In this document: positions 10,741 to 17,042 of the stretch, piece by piece
Layout: each line of letters begins with the position of its first letter
Position numbering within the stretch: the first letter of the stretch is position 1
DNA from: Pseudomonadota bacterium
GTDB taxonomy: Bacteria > Pseudomonadota > Gammaproteobacteria > Burkholderiales > Burkholderiaceae_C
Reading direction: 5' to 3'
Length of the DNA stretch: 33,595 nt
Assembly (NCBI GenBank): GCA_018240985.1
Contig: JAFEER010000271.1
Location: forward strand, 1 to 33,595
Position numbers and translations under genes: made by a program
Notes under the pieces: generated by a model
The model's input: only the letters and a program-made list of their open reading frames with translations
The model's database searches: none
What the model was told of the DNA's origin: nothing

Positions 10741-11616
10741 ATGCAATCCCCCCTGCCCGTCTTCGCCCTGCTGTGCAACGCCTTGCTGTGGGGCCTGTCG
10801 TGGTGGCCGTTTCGCCAGATGCACGCCGCCGGCCTGCACCCGCTGTGGGCCACGGCCCTCATGTACGCGCTGGTCTGCGCCGTGATGCTGATCGTGCGCC
10901 CGGCCAGCCTGCGCGAGCTGCTGCGCCAGCCGGCGCTGTGGCTGCTGGCGCTGAACTCCGGCATCAACAACATGGCCTTCAACTGGGCCGTGACGGTGGG
11001 CGACGTGGTGCGCGTGGTGCTGGTGTTCTACCTCATGCCCGCCTGGCTGGTGCTGCTGGCCTGGCGCGTGCTGGGCGAACGCCCAACGCCCACTGCCCTC
11101 ATGCGCCTGCTGCTGGCCTTTGGCGGCGTGGCGCTGGTGCTGGTACCGGCAGGCGCCAGCTTGGCCAGCCTGCTGGCCAATCTGTCGCTGGCCGATGCGC
11201 TGGCGCTCGTCGGCGGCTTCACCTTTGCCGTGACCAATGTGCTGCTGCGCCGCCTGCACACCGTGCCCGGCCCGGCGCGCATGCTGGCCATGTTTGCCGG
11301 CTGCATGGCCCTGGGCTGGGTGGCGGCCCTCATCGGGCATGCGGCGGGGCTGGTGCCGGCCTTCCCGGCCTTCGACCTGCGCTGGGCCGCCGTGGCCGTG
11401 CTGCTGGCCCTGCTGCTGATGCTGGGCAACTGGGCACTGCAATACGGCGCGGCGCGCCTGCCCGCGGCCATCACCGGGGTGGTGATGCTGTCGGAGGTGC
11501 TGTTTGCCAGCGTGTCATCGGTGCTGCTGGGCGCTGCGCAACTGCAGCCGCGCACGCTGGCAGGGGGCGCGCTGATCGTGCTGGCGGCGCTGTGGGCGAC
11601 GCTGGAACGGCGCTAG
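10741..11616 (+). CDS. EamA/DMT-family transporter
   Basis: 291 residues with about ten hydrophobic segments arranged as two EamA repeats (about residues 5-135 and 150-290), the standard drug/metabolite transporter architecture. The N-terminal repeat starts LLCNALLWGLSWWPFRQM. The second has ITGVVMLSEVLFASVSSVLLG, the conserved end-of-repeat motif of EamA exporters. It is probably an inner-membrane exporter of a small metabolite or amino acid; the substrate cannot be assigned. It follows lplT on the same strand after 50 bases holding a dispersed element, and is convergent with the cytochrome c gene, whose stop lies 35 bases away. Confidence 0.88.
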   Translation: MQSPLPVFALLCNALLWGLSWWPFRQMHAAGLHPLWATALMYALVCAVMLIVRPASLRELLRQPALWLLALNSGINNMAFNWAVTVGDVVRVVLVFYLMPAWLVLLAWRVLGERPTPTALMRLLLAFGGVALVLVPAGASLASLLANLSLADALALVGGFTFAVTNVLLRRLHTVPGPARMLAMFAGCMALGWVAALIGHAAGLVPAFPAFDLRWAAVAVLLALLLMLGNWALQYGAARLPAAITGVVMLSEVLFASVSSVLLGAAQLQPRTLAGGALIVLAALWATLERR

Positions 11617-11651: not shown

Positions 11652-12017
11652 TCAATGCCGGCCCGAACCCAGCGTGGCCAGGTAGGCAATGATGTCTGCA
11701 CGCTCCTGCGCGTCGGCCAGCCGATACCCCATGCGCTGGCCCGGCACGAGCGCCTCGGGGTTGGCAAGCCAACGATCGAGCAGTGCTGCGTCCCAGACCA
11801 AGCCACTGCTGCGCAGTGCGTCGCTGTAGGCAAAACCCGGCACGCTGCCGGCACGACGGCCGACGATGCCGGCGTGCCGCGGCCCGATGCGGTCGGCATC
11901 CACCGAGTGGCAGCCGCCACAACGGGCTTCATAGGCCAGCCGGCCGCGCTGCGCATCGCCGTCGGCCCAGGCCGACGCCGCAGCAAGCGCGGCAGCCAGC
12001 ACAAGAGCAGACCGCAT
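11652..12017 (-). CDS. Secreted mono-haem cytochrome c
   Basis: 121 residues. A Sec signal peptide (SALVLAAALAAASAWADG, cleavage near residue 18) is followed by a single haem site C33-GG-C36-H37 and a plausible Met ligand in VPGQRMGYRL. The size, the IGPRHAGIVGRRAG segment and the C-terminal AQERADIIAYLATL helix match small class I cytochromes c (cytochrome c2/c550-like). It is a periplasmic electron carrier. Its ATG lies 1 base after the stop of the Tat-exported ferritin-like gene, so both are in one transcript that starts at the ECF-type promoter at 12637-12664. This suggests it carries electrons to or from a stress-related reaction. Confidence 0.9.
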   Translation of the reverse strand: MRSALVLAAALAAASAWADGDAQRGRLAYEARCGGCHSVDADRIGPRHAGIVGRRAGSVPGFAYSDALRSSGLVWDAALLDRWLANPEALVPGQRMGYRLADAQERADIIAYLATLGSGRH

Positions 12018-12018
12018 T

Positions 12019-12597
12019 TCAGGCCCCGAAGCTCAGCGCAGCTGCCGGTAGCGGCCGGCCCAGCACCTGCGAGAGTGCAGTCCAGTGCATGGTTTCGTCG
12101 GCGGCCAGGCGCGCGGCCACCTGCCCGAGCTGGCTGTCCTTGAACGACGGGATCACGCCGAGATAGGCGTTCGCGGCCCCCAGCTCCAGCCGCGCCGCCA
12201 AGGTCAGCACATCGGCCTGGGTCTTCAGCGACGCAGCGTTCAGTGCCTTCGCGTATTCGTCGGGCGACTTCTCGGCTACCGACATGCCGCCCATCTTTTT
12301 GATGGTGGCCATAAGCGCGTCGCGGTGGGCCTTGTGGTGCGACTGGAAGGCAACGGCCACGTCGAGCGCCGGCTTTTGCAGCAGGCCGCTGCCGGCACCA
12401 AGCTGGTAGGCGTTGATGGCCTCATGCTCAAGGCCCAGGGCGACGTTCAGAATGTTCACGTCGGACTCCATCGTCATGGACGACTGCGCGTTTGCCACGC
12501 GTGTGCCGGCCATCAGGCCAATGGCCGCGGCCGACAGCGTGAGCTGGCCGGAGCGCGAGAGGAAGAGACGGCGGGCGGGTGAGAGGTTGGCTTGCAT
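12019..12597 (-). CDS. Tat-exported ferritin-like domain protein
   Basis: 192 residues from the ATG at 12597, chosen because a GAAGGAGT Shine-Dalgarno lies 5 bases upstream and a twin-arginine signal starts at once (ARRLFLSRSG, then a hydrophobic stretch ending TRVANAQ, cleavage near residue 39). The mature part is a four-helix bundle with ferritin-like ligand spacing: LEHEAINAY, SHHKAHRDAL, RLELGAANAY and DETMHWTAL, giving paired Glu/His for a di-metal site. It should act in the periplasm; iron or manganese binding, peroxide removal or iron storage are possible. It is the first gene of a pair with the cytochrome c, behind an ECF-type promoter. Substrate and metal are inferred only. Confidence 0.88.
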   Translation of the reverse strand: MQANLSPARRLFLSRSGQLTLSAAAIGLMAGTRVANAQSSMTMESDVNILNVALGLEHEAINAYQLGAGSGLLQKPALDVAVAFQSHHKAHRDALMATIKKMGGMSVAEKSPDEYAKALNAASLKTQADVLTLAARLELGAANAYLGVIPSFKDSQLGQVAARLAADETMHWTALSQVLGRPLPAAALSFGA

Positions 12598-12636: not shown

Positions 12637-12664
12637 GTACGGCACCCGTTGGCTGACCGGATGC
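12637..12664 (-). promoter_or_regulatory. ECF-type promoter before the ferritin-like/cytochrome c genes
   Basis: Minus strand GCATCC (12664-12659), 17 bases, CGTAC (12641-12637). The predicted start of transcription, near 12630, is about 33 bases before the ATG at 12597 and leaves room for the Shine-Dalgarno. It is the same bipartite motif as at 12702, 13838, 13891 and 14367; only this copy has a 17-base spacer. Confidence 0.62.
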
Positions 12665-12701
12665 GCATAGCCCTGCGGCCAGCCTGCGCAATACCCCCTT
12701 T

Positions 12702-12728
12702 GCATCCAATCGGGCATGCACACCGTAC
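12702..12728 (+). promoter_or_regulatory. ECF-type promoter before the SnoaL-like gene
   Basis: GCATCC (12702-12707), 16 bases, CGTAC (12724-12728). Transcription would start near 12735, about 29 bases before the ATG at 12764. It is divergent from the copy at 12664-12637, with the two -35 elements 37 bases apart. Confidence 0.62.
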
Positions 12729-12763
12729 CCCCTGCACCGCAACCACATGGATGGAGCAATTTC

Positions 12764-13159
12764 ATGCGCACCTCACTCGAAACTGTCCAGGACGCCTACG
12801 CAGCATTCGGCCGCGGCGACATGCCAGCCCTGCTGGCGCTGTGCAGCCCAGACATCCGCTGGCAATTCGTGGCCGACCGGTCGGCACCCTACAACGCCAC
12901 CGTGCTGGGTCGCGAGCAACTCGGCGCCTGGTTCGCTGCCGTTGCCGCAAGCGATGACATTCATGTCTTCGAGCCGCAGCAAATGCTCGCCGCATCAGAC
13001 CATGCCACGGTCATAGGGCACCAGCGCACAACGGTTCGCGCGACCGGAAGAACCTTTGAGTGCCCCTGGGTACATGTCTTCAGCGTCAGCGGCGGCATGA
13101 TCACGGCGTTCTGGGGCATGCTCGACACGCAGGCTGCGGCGGAGGCGCGCGCCGCCTGA
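12764..13159 (+). CDS. SnoaL-like (NTF2-fold) protein
   Basis: 131 residues from the ATG at 12764, selected for the GGAG 8 bases upstream and the family-typical opening TSLETVQDAYAAFGRGDMPALLALCSPDIRW. The latter is the first helix pair of the SnoaL/NTF2 cone-shaped fold. Later segments GREQLGAWFAAVAA, HATVIGHQRTTVRATGRTFECPWVHVFSVSGGMITAFWGMLDT complete it. SnoaL-like proteins include ketosteroid-isomerase-type enzymes and stress proteins, and a SnoaL domain is fused to ECF41 sigma factors. Here it is separate but lies in an ECF locus and has the shared promoter motif. The catalytic role is not predictable. Confidence 0.85.
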   Translation: MRTSLETVQDAYAAFGRGDMPALLALCSPDIRWQFVADRSAPYNATVLGREQLGAWFAAVAASDDIHVFEPQQMLAASDHATVIGHQRTTVRATGRTFECPWVHVFSVSGGMITAFWGMLDTQAAAEARAA

Positions 13160-13194
13160 CGACAGCCGGATTTGGCGCACAGGGGGCGGTCGGG

Positions 13195-13704
13195 TCAGCC
13201 GCTCTTCGCCGCAGCGCGCGGCGCGGGCGCGCCCTCGACGCGCTCGAGATAGCGCCGCAACCCGACCTCACCGGCACACATGACGCTACGGTGATTCCAG
13301 CGAAACACCGGCTTCAGCAGCGGGGCCAGCCAGCGCATCCAGCGCCCCTTGAGCGTCACGCGCCAGACATAGGTCACATCGGTGAAGCCTGGCTCGGCGC
13401 GCAGCAGCCACAGGCCTTCGGCGTCGAGCTGCCCGCGCGAACGCACGCGCAGCCTCTGCTGGCGCACCGACTCCACGGCCTCGACCTCGATGACGATGCG
13501 GTAGGGAAGGCGCGTGGCCCAGTCGATGCGCCGCAGCGCGCCCAAGCCATCGGCATCGCCTTCGCGTAGCGTCTGAACCTCGCGCACGTAGGGCCACCAG
13601 CGCGGCCAAGAAGCGGGGTCGGTGATTGCGGCCCAGACGCGCTCCACTGGCGCGTAGATGCGCCACTGGCTCACCAGATCGAATCGGGTAGGTAACATGG
13701 ACAT
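13195..13704 (-). CDS. SRPBCC (START-like) domain protein
   Basis: 169 residues from the ATG at 13704; a second ATG two codons later is equally possible, and the longer frame starts with TTG. The N-terminus FDLVSQWRIYAPVERVWAAITDPASWPRWWPYV is the characteristic first strand and helix of polyketide cyclase/dehydrase-type SRPBCC proteins. TDVTYVWRVTLKGRWMRWLAPLLKPVFRWNHRSVM forms the last strands and long C-terminal helix over the hydrophobic cavity. It probably binds or processes a lipid or aromatic ligand. A minus-strand ECF-type promoter lies about 100 bases upstream (13838-13812), placing it in the local regulon. Confidence 0.85.
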   Translation of the reverse strand: MSMLPTRFDLVSQWRIYAPVERVWAAITDPASWPRWWPYVREVQTLREGDADGLGALRRIDWATRLPYRIVIEVEAVESVRQQRLRVRSRGQLDAEGLWLLRAEPGFTDVTYVWRVTLKGRWMRWLAPLLKPVFRWNHRSVMCAGEVGLRRYLERVEGAPAPRAAAKSG

Positions 13705-13811
13705 GGCGCGGCAGACACGGTCACGTGGCAGGGAATAGCGCGCGGAAGCTGTCAAGCGAGGGGGCGCATCGGGTCATGGCGGGCCTTCTGTCGTGATGGC
13801 GGTTCCCCTTT

Positions 13812-13838
13812 TTACGTCCGCCTCGGACAGCCGGATGC
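13812..13838 (-). promoter_or_regulatory. ECF-type promoter before the SRPBCC gene
   Basis: Minus strand GCATCC (13838-13833), 16 bases, CGTAA (13816-13812). The predicted transcript starts near 13805, about 100 bases before the SRPBCC ATG. The motif sits inside the 5' part of the longest possible frame of the divergent cupin gene, arguing that the cupin gene starts further downstream. Confidence 0.58.
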
Positions 13839-13890
13839 AGGCCGACGCCACGCTCGATCTTGAACTTGACCCGGGCGCGGGCAAGGTGTT

Positions 13891-13917
13891 GAATCCGCGC
13901 ATCCAACCTCTGCGTAT
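13891..13917 (+). promoter_or_regulatory. ECF-type promoter before the single-cupin gene
   Basis: GAATCC (13891-13896), 16 bases, CGTAT (13913-13917), one base different from the GCATCC box of the other copies. Transcription from it would start at about 13923-13925, coinciding with an in-frame ATG at 13925. A leaderless message is therefore possible. Confidence 0.5.
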
Positions 13918-13924
13918 TCACTGC

Positions 13925-14347
13925 ATGGACTGCACCGATCCCCTGCTCCAGGAAACCACGCCAGCACAGGCGCGGGCCATCCGCCGCCGGCTCATGGAGC
14001 GCGTGGCTGACGCCGACGATTCGCACCTGACGATAGCCAGCGACGCCGGCCAATGGCTTGCCTTCCTGGAAGGCGTGGCGATCAAACCGCTGCGCGAGCG
14101 TGACGGCGTGCTGTCGTACCTGTTGCGCCTGGCGCCAGGGGCCAGGCTGCCGCCGCACCGCCATCCGCAGGACGAAGAGTGCATCGTGCTCGAGGGTCGT
14201 CTGCGTGTCGGAACCCAGGTTGAACTCGGCCCCGGCGGCTACCACTTGGCACATGGCGGCGCATTGCACGCCAGCATCACCACAGAGACTGGCGCGACGA
14301 TCTTCCTGCGCGGCGCCGTACCCGAGGCGAGCCAGCTGCTCGAATGA
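13925..14347 (+). CDS. Single-cupin protein, ChrR-like cupin domain
   Basis: 140 residues from the ATG at 13925; the frame is open back to an ATG at 13796 (183 residues), but the upstream part overlaps two promoter motifs and does not resemble cupins. The cupin barrel has motif 1 PPHRHPQDEECIVLEGRLRVG (His-His-Glu metal ligands) near residues 80-100 and motif 2 GGYHLAHGGALHAS. Its N-terminal DPLLQETTPAQARAIRRRLMERV resembles the N-terminal helix of the double-cupin protein downstream (DRAMEPLLSEPFASAL...RSRLLTRL), so the two are probably related by duplication. It may be a metal-binding sensor or an enzyme of the stress response; no substrate can be named. Confidence 0.8.
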   Translation: MDCTDPLLQETTPAQARAIRRRLMERVADADDSHLTIASDAGQWLAFLEGVAIKPLRERDGVLSYLLRLAPGARLPPHRHPQDEECIVLEGRLRVGTQVELGPGGYHLAHGGALHASITTETGATIFLRGAVPEASQLLE

Positions 14348-14366
14348 CTGCGATGGCCAGCACTGC

Positions 14367-14393
14367 GCATCCGAATGCGAACCGGCGCCGTAT
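14367..14393 (+). promoter_or_regulatory. ECF-type promoter before the ECF sigma gene (autoregulation)
   Basis: GCATCC (14367-14372), 16 bases, CGTAT (14389-14393), about 68 bases before the sigma-factor ATG. The same motif as at the other transcription units of the locus implies that the sigma factor drives its own gene, as is usual for ECF sigma/anti-sigma pairs. Confidence 0.62.
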
Positions 14394-14460: not shown

Positions 14461-15186
14461 ATGAACGCTGCCATGAAGAAGACCGATGCCCCCGAGGACA
14501 GCGGCAGGCTTCAGAGTGAATACAAGGATGCATCCGACGATCCGCCGGGGGAGGCAGAACCGCTGCATGAGGAAGGAAGTACCCCCGATGAGGCTCGCAG
14601 CAACCTGCCTGCCGCGTCCGACGCGCAGCTCGCGCAGTGGATTGCGGCCATCGTGGATCGGGACGAACATGCGCTGACGGCGCTCTACGATGCCACGTTC
14701 ACGCGCGTGTTCGGCCTCGTGCGGCGCATCGTGCACAGCACGGCATTGGCCGAGGAGGTGGTGGAAGACGCCTATTTCCAGGTCTGGCGGCAAGCGGTTC
14801 GCTTCGACCCTGCACGTGGCCGGGCGCTGACCTGGCTGCTGGCGATGGCCAGGTCGCGGGCAATCGACGCCTTGCGCCACGAGGCGCGTTTTCAGCATGC
14901 CGCGCTGGACGGCGAGTCCCTGCCCGAGGCCGCCAGCGAGGCGCCGCTCGTCGACGAGCTACTCGATCTGGCGCGCCACAGCTCGGATCTGCACCAGGCG
15001 CTGATGCTGCTGGGAGCGCAGCCACGCCAGTTGGTGTCGCTGGCATTCTTCCGTGGCCTGTCCCACGAGGAGATTGCGCAGCAGACGCTGTTGCCGCTTG
15101 GCACGGTCAAATCACAGATCCGCCGCGCCCTGCTATCGCTGCGCGAGACCCTCGGCGACCGCGGCGCGCCGGCCTTTCTGTCATGA
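14461..15186 (+). CDS. ECF-family RNA polymerase sigma factor
   Basis: 241 residues. Region 2 spans about 75-140 (LYDATFTRVFGLVRRIV, EEVVEDAYFQVWRQAVRFDP, RALTWLLAMARSRAIDALR), with -10 recognition and core binding. Region 4 spans about 180-230, with a helix-turn-helix LSHEEIAQQTLLPLGTVKSQIRRAL that reads the -35. An unusual hydrophilic, acidic extension of about 55 residues precedes region 2. The last four bases (ATGA) overlap the start of the double-cupin gene, typical of sigma/anti-sigma pairs. The arrangement fits ECF groups with cupin anti-sigma factors such as RpoE-ChrR (response to singlet oxygen/organic hydroperoxide); the inducing signal here is not known. A TGAGG Shine-Dalgarno precedes the ATG. 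Confidence 0.93.
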   Translation: MNAAMKKTDAPEDSGRLQSEYKDASDDPPGEAEPLHEEGSTPDEARSNLPAASDAQLAQWIAAIVDRDEHALTALYDATFTRVFGLVRRIVHSTALAEEVVEDAYFQVWRQAVRFDPARGRALTWLLAMARSRAIDALRHEARFQHAALDGESLPEAASEAPLVDELLDLARHSSDLHQALMLLGAQPRQLVSLAFFRGLSHEEIAQQTLLPLGTVKSQIRRALLSLRETLGDRGAPAFLS

Positions 15187-16061
15187 GCCGCTTCACAGAT
15201 CACATTGCCATGCCTGCCAACCCGCTACCGCTGCCAATCAACGCCGCCCCCGATCCGCTCGACCGCGCCATGGAGCCCTTGCTGAGCGAGCCATTCGCCA
15301 GCGCCCTGGATGCGGACGAAGCCGCAGCCATGGCGGCATCGGGCCCCTTGCGCAGCCGGCTGCTGACGCGTCTACAGGCATCGCGCGCCGCCTCGGCCGC
15401 AATGATCACGTCTCGGCCGAAGCGACTGGCGACGGCGCAACTGGCGGCGGGAGTCGCCGAGCGCGTGCTGTACGCGGCGGCGCAAGACCGGCCGCTGCGG
15501 CCGGGCGAACCCTGGCGCGCAAGGCTCCTGGAGCTGCAGCCCGGCAGCCGCTGGCAGGGCCCGGACGCCAGCTGCCACCGCGAATGGCTGGTGCTGCGCG
15601 GATCAGCCGGCATCGGCCGCGAACAGCTGCACCCGCGCGACTACCACGCCGCGCCGGCGGGTGCCGCAGTGGGCGCACTGTCATCCGAACGGGGCGCATT
15701 GCTGTTCCTGCGCGAGTCGGCCATTGCCCCACGCCCCGCTGACGCGCCGTTTACCGTGCGCGACGCCGATGCCGGCTGGCCCGAGTTCGCCCCCGGCATC
15801 CGGCGCCGAGTGCTCTGGCAGCGCGACGGCCAGGCAGCCCTGCTCTACCACGCGCAGCGCGGTGCCGCCGTGCCCCAGCACACGCACGGGCATGACGAGG
15901 AATGCCTGATGGTGCAGGGAGAGCTGTTCCTCGACGACCTGCTGCTGCAGGAGGGCGACTACCAGCTCGCCCCCGCCGGCACGGGCCACCACATCACCGA
16001 GACGGACACGGGCGTGGTGATCTACGCGCACGGCGACCTTGATCTGAGGTTTGTCGCCTGA
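15183..16061 (+). CDS. Double-cupin protein, probable anti-sigma factor (ChrR-like)
   Basis: 292 residues, start ATG overlapping the sigma-factor stop. The N-terminal part, about 30-75 (MEPLLSEPFASALDADEAAAMAASGPLRSRLLTRL), is helical and is the likely sigma-binding segment. A degenerate first cupin follows at about 95-185 (WQGPDASCHREWLVLRGSAGIG, lacking most metal ligands). A complete second cupin lies at about 225-285 with H-T-H-G-H-DEE and a later GTGHH. ChrR, the known cupin anti-sigma factor, holds an N-terminal zinc site made of His and a CxxC pair; no Cys-x-x-Cys exists here, so any inhibition must work differently. Gene coupling and domain order support the anti-sigma role, but it is not proved by sequence. 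Confidence 0.82.
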   Translation: MSRFTDHIAMPANPLPLPINAAPDPLDRAMEPLLSEPFASALDADEAAAMAASGPLRSRLLTRLQASRAASAAMITSRPKRLATAQLAAGVAERVLYAAAQDRPLRPGEPWRARLLELQPGSRWQGPDASCHREWLVLRGSAGIGREQLHPRDYHAAPAGAAVGALSSERGALLFLRESAIAPRPADAPFTVRDADAGWPEFAPGIRRRVLWQRDGQAALLYHAQRGAAVPQHTHGHDEECLMVQGELFLDDLLLQEGDYQLAPAGTGHHITETDTGVVIYAHGDLDLRFVA

Positions 16062-16170: not shown

Positions 16171-16473
16171 TCAGCGGCACCATTGCTGTTCGCAGGGCAC
16201 GCCATCATTGTTCCCGTCCATTTTGACGCCGGGACAATTTTTGAGGAAGAACGTCGCCTCTTCGCATGAGGTCATCTGCGAGCAATAAGTTCTGCCATCG
16301 CATTGGAATTTCGGAACAACAGCGCTCGGACGTTCTGTTTTGGCAGTGCGATTCGGAATGGAAATTCCTGAAGAGCGCTCGTGCACTGCGGTCGCGGCGC
16401 TGCGTGCTTGGTATTTTTCAAACCCTTTCCAAGCGCCAAATGCAAGCACGGCAATGATGAGAATCCGGAACAT
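16171..16473 (-). CDS. Small secreted/anchored excalibur calcium-binding domain protein
   Basis: 100 residues from the ATG at 16473, preceded by a GGGAGGGAG Shine-Dalgarno. A hydrophobic N-terminal helix (FRILIIAVLAFGAW) anchors or exports it. The C-terminal 45 residues form an excalibur domain: CDGRTYCSQMTSCEEATFFL then KNCPG..MDGNNDGVPCEQQWC, with the DxDxDGxxCE-like calcium loop (here DGNNDGVPCE) and six cysteines able to form disulfides. Its A+T content is higher than that of its neighbours, hinting at separate acquisition. The role at the cell surface is unknown; related domains occur on extracellular nucleases, but no nuclease domain is present here. Confidence 0.85.
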   Translation of the reverse strand: MFRILIIAVLAFGAWKGFEKYQARSAATAVHERSSGISIPNRTAKTERPSAVVPKFQCDGRTYCSQMTSCEEATFFLKNCPGVKMDGNNDGVPCEQQWCR

Positions 16474-16526
16474 GCTCCCTCCCAAAAAATGACGGCCGGC
16501 GTGCTGCGCCGCAGGCCCGTTGGTTG

Positions 16527-17042
16527 TCACCCCATTCGCCCGCTCAGGATCAGATAGCCGGGCAGCCAGCCGGTGAGCACGCCCTGGGCGATGCACATGG
16601 CGCCCGTGAAGCGCCCGATGTCGCGCCCGCGCGCCAGCAGCAGCCAGAACAGCGCCCACAGCAGCGCCCAGGCGGCCCAATTGGCGCCCATCCACCAATC
16701 GATCAGGGCATTGGCCCCGGCCAGGGTGTCCAGCGCCACGGGCACGGCGGTGATGGCGACGAACAGGCTGAACCAGCCCAGGCCGCGCCCATCGGCGCCG
16801 CTGAAGCGGTTGGCTGCCACCCACAGGTAGGTGAAGGCGAACAGCAGCGTGAGGGTGCCGTTCCTGACCGATGCCGCATCGGCCGCGGGGCCGAAGATGG
16901 AAAACAGGCCTATGGCCAGCGACACCAGGCCGGCGAAGATGTTGATGACCCAGATCTCGCGATCGGCAATGTGGCCGCGCATCCACAGGCCGTTCAGGCA
17001 CAGCACGGCGCCCACGTAGAACAGCGATACGCCCAGCCACAT
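16527..17042 (-). CDS. AmiS/UreI-family urea/amide channel
   Basis: 171 residues with six membrane segments, the AmiS/UreI size and topology. Family landmarks include LFYVGAVLCLNGLWMRGHI at the N-terminus, INIFAGLVSLAIGLF, LLFAFTYLWVAANRF (the conserved YLWVA-N segment lining the pore) and GVLTGWLPGYLIL at the C-terminus. UreI is the proton-gated urea channel of Helicobacter and AmiS lies in amidase operons. No urease or amidase gene is near, so the partner enzyme is encoded elsewhere or the substrate differs. The gene starts 11 bases after the proQ-like stop and is probably on the same transcript, an uncommon pairing. Confidence 0.87.
   Translation of the reverse strand: MWLGVSLFYVGAVLCLNGLWMRGHIADREIWVINIFAGLVSLAIGLFSIFGPAADAASVRNGTLTLLFAFTYLWVAANRFSGADGRGLGWFSLFVAITAVPVALDTLAGANALIDWWMGANWAAWALLWALFWLLLARGRDIGRFTGAMCIAQGVLTGWLPGYLILSGRMG

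Follow-up and report, generated by a model that had tools for sequence, protein, structure and literature searches.

Two described systems lie closest to the locus presented here. In the RpoE-ChrR system (ECF11) of Rhodobacter sphaeroides, a sigma factor of the extracytoplasmic function (ECF) type is encoded beside a soluble partner with a Pfam 'ChrR Cupin-like' domain, and the sigma factor's own operon is part of its regulon, according to two publications (PMC6852236, PMC8999054). Soluble anti-sigma factors of the ChrR kind carry a zinc module, as stated in a review (PMC8999054), and a survey finds that about 72% of the soluble anti-sigma factors have the zinc motif, so that members without it are already known (PMC7406223). 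For the second system, SigK-RskA (ECF19), a published table places some members of ECF19 among the sigma factors regulated through conformational change, and soluble partners in that group may therefore not be new (PMC8999054). A soluble cupin partner beside an ECF sigma factor and a sigma operon within its own predicted regulon likewise characterize a locus on contig JAFEER010000271.1 of a Pseudomonadota bacterium (assembly GCA_018240985.1, a 4.04-Mb draft, 95% complete), of which 33,595 nucleotides of the forward strand were analysed (the window). Here, a SigK-like ECF sigma factor (14461-15186, + strand) is followed directly by a double-cupin protein (15210-16061, +), and copies of one promoter motif precede the sigma gene and four neighbouring units. 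The locus likely represents a self-regulated ECF sigma regulon, in which the sigma factor would read the motif, drive its own gene plus the four other units, and be held by the zinc-free double cupin until a signal arrives.

Five copies of the motif G[CA]ATCC-N16/17-CGTA, all directed at a gene, had been proposed in the initial annotation, and a pattern search recovered each in its place and orientation, with one amendment: the ends quoted on the CGTA side were one base too long in every copy. GCATCC-N17-CGTA precedes the ferritin-like/cytochrome c operon (12638-12664, -), GCATCC-N16-CGTA precedes the genes for SnoaL (12702-12727, +), SRPBCC (13813-13838, -) and the sigma factor (14367-14392, +, between the cupin stop and the sigma start), and GAATCC-N16-CGTA precedes the single-cupin gene (13891-13916, +). 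The spacer is accordingly 16 bases in four copies and 17 in the ferritin-like copy, while CGTA lies 40 bases from the likely start of the ferritin-like gene, 36 from that of SnoaL, 108 or 114 from SRPBCC, 8 from the single cupin and 68 from the sigma gene. For comparison, the Rhodobacter RpoE promoter is of the TGATCC type and that of SigK of the CCATCC type; a literature search found no paper joining CCATCC with SigK. Between positions 11600 and 16100, five matches stand against 0.0145 expected under a first-order Markov model (2000 simulations), and across the entire window the pattern has six matches, where 300 Markov simulations average 0.12. The sixth match (2068-2093, +) runs antisense inside an open reading frame judged by eye to encode an aminotransferase, and seems to be a chance occurrence.

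The motif is conserved in orthologous loci, a check that had been set beforehand. Relatives of the window sigma comprise eight close ones (L011-L018, 67-79% identity) and two distant ones from a scan of species genomes, and in a family search with the same protein 54 of 299 genomes had a match at E ≤ 1e-30. In 25 double-cupin-type loci, scanned from -3000 to +4500 around the sigma start as far as the sequence reaches (L071, L073, L076 and the later-added L148 are omitted), G[CA]ATCC-Nk-CGTA occurs 56 times at k = 16, in 22 loci, and three times at k = 17, with one match each at k = 8, 10, 12 and 26 and zero at the remaining values of k from 8 to 26; the loci are kin, and these matches are not independent of one another. 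Two duplicates (L055 of L015, L063 of L018) are excluded from this and from the target, upstream-motif and zinc-motif counts. At the four sites where L011 and the window have spacers of equal length, the boxes are identical at 10 of 10 positions and the spacers agree at 12, 4, 7 and 8 of 16; the boxes of the ferritin-like site are also kept in L011, with a 16-base spacer. By target gene, the motif is present in 16/16 single-cupin, 4/4 SnoaL, 5/5 ferritin-like and 12/18 SRPBCC rows.

The sigma gene itself is among the genes with a conserved motif. A sense motif lies within 850 bases before sigma codon 50 in 24 of 29 double-cupin-type, 6 of 8 single-cupin-type and 12 of 26 RskA-type loci, a count that also takes in the upstream single-cupin promoter and for which L013 was restored; the autoregulation suggested earlier fits this distribution. 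Before the sigma gene and its neighbours there is, in sum, a -35/-10 pair of fixed spacing that is conserved in orthologs, as would be looked for in an autoregulated local regulon. Where gene order is rearranged, the motif has travelled with the gene: in L017 the ferritin-like/cytochrome c and SnoaL genes are relocated behind the partner gene and retain their divergent motif pair, and in L056 SnoaL sits at another place with its own motif retained. Further motif-preceded genes in relatives encode DUF4331, DUF3034, DUF4198, alpha/beta hydrolase and cupredoxin-like proteins (one Pfam-checked example each, and two for the cupredoxin-like type, of which one is under the Pfam cut-off); several relative targets, like the genes around other genome sites, were named by eye from translations. 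DUF4331-like proteins are found downstream of the motif near cupin- or RskA-type sigmas in L058, L070, L072, L078 and L014, the assignment being checked by Pfam in L058. The association offers a possible clue to the function of DUF4331, which is unmentioned in the best-matching literature found on the topic.

By sequence comparison, the window sigma is SigK-like. Its closest solved chain is SigK (4nqw, E 5e-29), followed by Rhodobacter RpoE (5e-22), and its best NCBIfam model is likewise SigK, matched at 149.7 bits, under the cut-off of 226. In a 64-row sigma tree, rows group by partner type (double cupin, single cupin or RskA-like) with four label changes, where the minimum is three and the shuffled mean 27.9, and the window sigma belongs to a set of 20 double-cupin rows supported at 98/87. 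The tree omits L123 (a duplicate of L059) together with L127, L129 and L013 (whose extracted sigma region contains an in-frame stop), and since its rows were picked by similarity to the window it says little on the full extent of the group, for which an existing ECF group number may be available. Among the RskA-like partners of sister sigmas, Pfam confirms the RskA_C domain in those of L079 and L080, and 24 others are assigned solely by similarity to these two. In L075 and L077, RskA-type and single-cupin-type sigmas lie side by side, and the L077 pair adjoins ferritin-like/cytochrome c genes; this arrangement may show a route of partner exchange.

The motif marks a sigma group rather than the window sigma alone, because it is also carried by sister ECF sigmas and by ferritin-like loci in genomes without a window-sigma match at E ≤ 1e-30. 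The ferritin-like gene is preceded by G[CA]ATCC-N16/17-CGTA in 25 of 30 loci examined, out of 67 matching places in 60 genomes, and such genomes are among them. The earlier interpretation as a local regulon is supported by conservation, and autoregulation fits it; a first correction is that the motif is not private to this sigma factor. The five motifs might by the same evidence be promoters of another ECF sigma, with the local one a single reader among several, since sister sigmas with RskA-like or single-cupin partners have the same motif and the ferritin-like gene keeps it where the window sigma has no match. This alternative is nevertheless improbable, as a search of the 95% complete draft genome yielded no further sigma of this group, the next four matches having E values of 5e-8 to 4e-4 and 27-32% identity.

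The soluble double cupin, which stands in the anti-sigma position, is likely the anti-sigma factor of the window sigma. Given a conserved internal ATG, its start is more likely at 15210, and an ATG at 15183 could also serve. The protein contains two Cupin_7 stretches (Pfam, E 1.8e-18) and matches cupin families only, and an AlphaFold2 model built from eight sequences (L016, cut at a contig end, was excluded from the alignment) has a mean predicted local distance difference test score (pLDDT) of 76.6, with a poorly predicted start, a low-confidence helix at residues 37-64 and two cupins; profile and model together indicate a double-cupin fold. The zinc anti-sigma motif HxxxCxxC occurs in the first 150 residues of 0/28 distinct double-cupin rows and 0/16 upstream single-cupin rows, and a second extraction of the first 120 residues gave 0/27 and 0/6, respectively. 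The first cupin lacks an H-x-H motif by eye, and the second has an H-x-H...E ligand pattern in 27 of 28 rows, the remaining row being cut by a contig end. A cysteine after an acidic pair in the second cupin is found in the same proportion (27/28, the other row again cut) and in 16/16 upstream single cupins. An earlier extraction had required H-x-H, which makes its 27/27 partly a result of construction, and had missed single-cupin rows L075 and L077, in which the motif is one residue longer; a recount on rows chosen by similarity alone shows the cysteine in these two as well.

Foldseek places 3o14, a two-cupin protein, as the top match to the double-cupin model, over the cupins only, and VIA-align ties it by Z with 1sfn; as VIA-align rows mostly begin near model residues 53-64, the comparison with known structures hardly reached the N-terminus. 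The N-terminal stretches of the double and single cupins align with each other (probability 96.6%, E 5.3e-10), over a stretch that extends into the cupin start. Beyond the immediate relatives, double-cupin matches at E ≤ 1e-15 occur in 7 of 369 genomes of the class, namely the source genome and six others, each from another family, mainly over the last cupin. All six lie directly behind sigmas 38-47% identical to the window sigma, contain no HxxxCxxC and keep the cysteine, so that sigmas of this kind have zinc-free cupin partners in more than one family, the double-cupin form being seen only in that of the window. Near the sigma start of these six loci, a looser pattern, [GT][ACG]ATCC-N16-CGTA, occurs in sense orientation in L150 and L152 and on the opposite strand in L150, L152, L153 and L154.

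The single-cupin protein upstream of the sigma (13925-14347, +; Pfam Cupin_7) has a short N-terminal stretch and is a candidate second regulator; its predicted structure was discarded for low confidence (mean pLDDT 57.6). In 16/16 single-cupin rows, CGTA is followed by an in-frame ATG at a distance of 8, 9 or 10 bases (8 in the window). At ECF promoters transcription usually starts a few bases after the -10 box. Taken with the ATG spacing, this predicts a nearly leaderless message, and the single-cupin mRNA is probably leaderless. The same 8-10-base spacing is also found at some SRPBCC and sigma genes (L056, L058, L065, L077). Close matches to the protein (E ≤ 1e-54) occur in 11 genomes, all with the sigma too, and each of six weaker matches in family genomes lies directly behind a sigma 39-45% identical to that of the window. 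The initial annotation had listed the single cupin as a target, and this calls for a second correction; with relatives in the anti-sigma position behind related sigmas, it is probably a regulator itself rather than a plain target.

These same six loci, together with the cupins behind sigmas in the six genomes of other families, show that single cupins can occupy the anti-sigma position, and they are what favours a second arrangement, in which the main anti-sigma role falls to the single cupin encoded upstream, with the double cupin a modulating sensor or accessory. This is considered unlikely: some double-cupin-type loci, L017, L058 and L061 among them, have no single cupin upstream and yet a double-cupin match follows the sigma, and the window's single cupin seems by eye to be without the first conserved N-terminal stretch of the related single cupins.

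In the favoured scheme, with the double cupin as anti-sigma factor, the sigma factor would recognise G[CA]ATCC at -35 and CGTA at -10 across a spacer of 16, sometimes 17, bases, and would drive its own gene together with the ferritin-like/cytochrome c, SnoaL, SRPBCC and single-cupin units. At rest, it would be held by the soluble double cupin encoded directly behind it, which is proposed to bind through its short helical N-terminal segment rather than a zinc module. A putative metal site in the second cupin, where the invariant cysteine adjoins an acidic pair containing the glutamate ligand, may sense a cytoplasmic signal (an oxidant or small ligand) that frees the sigma. Once freed, the sigma would feed back on the system by raising expression of its own gene, of the double-cupin gene and, through a leaderless mRNA, of the single cupin.

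Several observations weigh against this scheme. The helical N-terminus of the double cupin is modelled with low confidence (block pLDDT 48-55, residues 31-60), and its similarity to the RskA N-terminus went undetected by hhalign, a weak test in which 4 of 26 RskA rows were wrong-frame (L080, L130, L134, L136); for the double and single cupins, a link to the RskA N-terminus received probabilities of 0.5% and 0.4%. Of the 15 family genomes that have a close sigma, 4 (G133, G058, G156, G199) have no close single cupin, and no sense motif lies upstream of the sigma in 5 of 29 double-cupin-type loci (L060, L069, L071, L073, L148) or in 14 of 26 RskA-type loci. As the motif is common to sister sigmas, sequence cannot tell which sigma acts in genomes with several. 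Motif totals add to these points: GCATCC-N16/17-CGTA has 10 matches in the source genome, four at this locus, against 7 for a backwards-read control, and GCATCC-N16-CGTA totals per genome are 3-23 for 13 genomes with the window sigma and 3-12 for 14 that have no match to it at E ≤ 1e-30.

Raw genome-wide counts do not distinguish genomes with and without the sigma, and since totals are undiagnostic the evidence rests on the positions of sites, not their number. The totals also provide what case there is for reading the motifs as a chance or composition effect of a GC-rich genome, an explanation rejected as extremely improbable in view of the excess over expectation in 4.5 kb, the sharp spacer peak and conservation of the boxes despite diverged spacers. 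With the spacer fixed, G[CA]ATCC-N16-CGTA has 12 matches in the source genome against 1 for the backwards-read pattern. Beyond the five, both searches together yield nine sites, of which seven are intragenic, one (L010) lies in a repeat-rich intergenic stretch and one (L054) is intergenic, about 120 bases upstream of an open reading frame that reads by eye as a MerR regulator. With eight of nine other sites in genes or the repeat-rich stretch, the regulon looks compact and confined to the locus in this draft genome. Dispersed GCATCCGGGCTAC repeats (G252; contigs C19, C38, C84 and others) also match the promoter pattern, some on both strands, a fit that is probably accidental.

Among the remaining genes of the locus, that of a class I c-type cytochrome (11652-12017, -; Pfam Cytochrom_C), with CxxCH and a leader resembling a signal peptide by eye, lies beside the gene of a ferritin-like protein (12019-12597, -; Pfam Ferritin_2) that is probably exported, to judge from a twin-arginine-like leader recognised by eye. 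The SnoaL-like protein (12764-13159, +; Pfam SnoaL_2) and the SRPBCC protein (13195-13698, -; polyketide cyclase/START-like, Pfam Polyketide_cyc2, start codon uncertain) follow. As a guess, this set of ferritin-like, cytochrome c, SnoaL, SRPBCC and cupin proteins points to redox or envelope stress. Some relatives (L066, L067, L118, L121 and L013) have another protein in the divergent position next to the cupin or sigma; it differs from the first and was judged SRPBCC-like by eye (MPRFVEVQHQEWIA...). An Excalibur-domain protein (16171-16476, -) and an AmiS/UreI-type transporter (16527-17042, -) adjoin the regulon in the window, and the window pattern search found no strict motif before either gene.

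Compared with RpoE-ChrR, the window double cupin shares the Pfam cupin family of ChrR and keeps its H-x-H...E ligand pattern, metal binding being putative, but differs in having two cupins and in its lack of the N-terminal zinc anti-sigma motif in all 28 rows; curated ChrR models match only its cupin, far under their cut-offs (26.2 of 300 bits and 23.7 of 124.5 bits), and its sigma is nearer SigK than RpoE by sequence. The Marinobacter two-cupin protein 3o14, titled 'anti-ECF sigma factor, ChrR' and known by that structure title, shares 17-19% identity with the double cupin, leaves its helical N-terminus uncovered and has a phenylalanine in place of the conserved cysteine. No described cupin-type anti-sigma factor without a zinc module was found in the literature searched. 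It is conceivable, on present grounds less probable than not, that such proteins form a zinc-free soluble anti-sigma class, with a helical N-terminus, one or two cupins and an invariant cysteine sensor, paired with SigK-like sigmas in several families, and that two cupin brakes and a leaderless mRNA shape the feedback here.

SigK-RskA offers the closest solved sigma, and sister sigmas of the window sigma with RskA-like partners carry the same motif in 12 of 26 cases, whereas the window partner matches cupin families and not the membrane-type RskA_C. Conservation of Cys133/Cys183 is reported for 94% of ECF18 and for 56% of ECF19 (PMC7509140); unlike those two-cysteine sigmas, the window sigma has zero cysteines. 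Total cysteines in the sigma core, exact positions not being considered, are 0, 1, 2, 3 and 4 in 6, 13, 7, 1 and 1 of 28 double-cupin types (L013 restored), and at least two in 26 of 26 RskA-type sigmas. A conserved zinc-free cupin group with a sharply defined promoter offers a ready test of how a cupin alone would hold and release a sigma factor, exchange of RskA-like and cupin partners on sigmas with a common promoter is useful for studying anti-sigma swaps at constant promoter choice, and the predicted leaderless start of a regulator that belongs to the regulon it controls should be simple to check. The locus resembles a ChrR-type system but lacks the zinc motif that defines one, and its sigma factor is SigK-like without RskA; the partner is more interesting than the motifs, as a zinc-free cupin stands where sister sigmas use RskA-like proteins.

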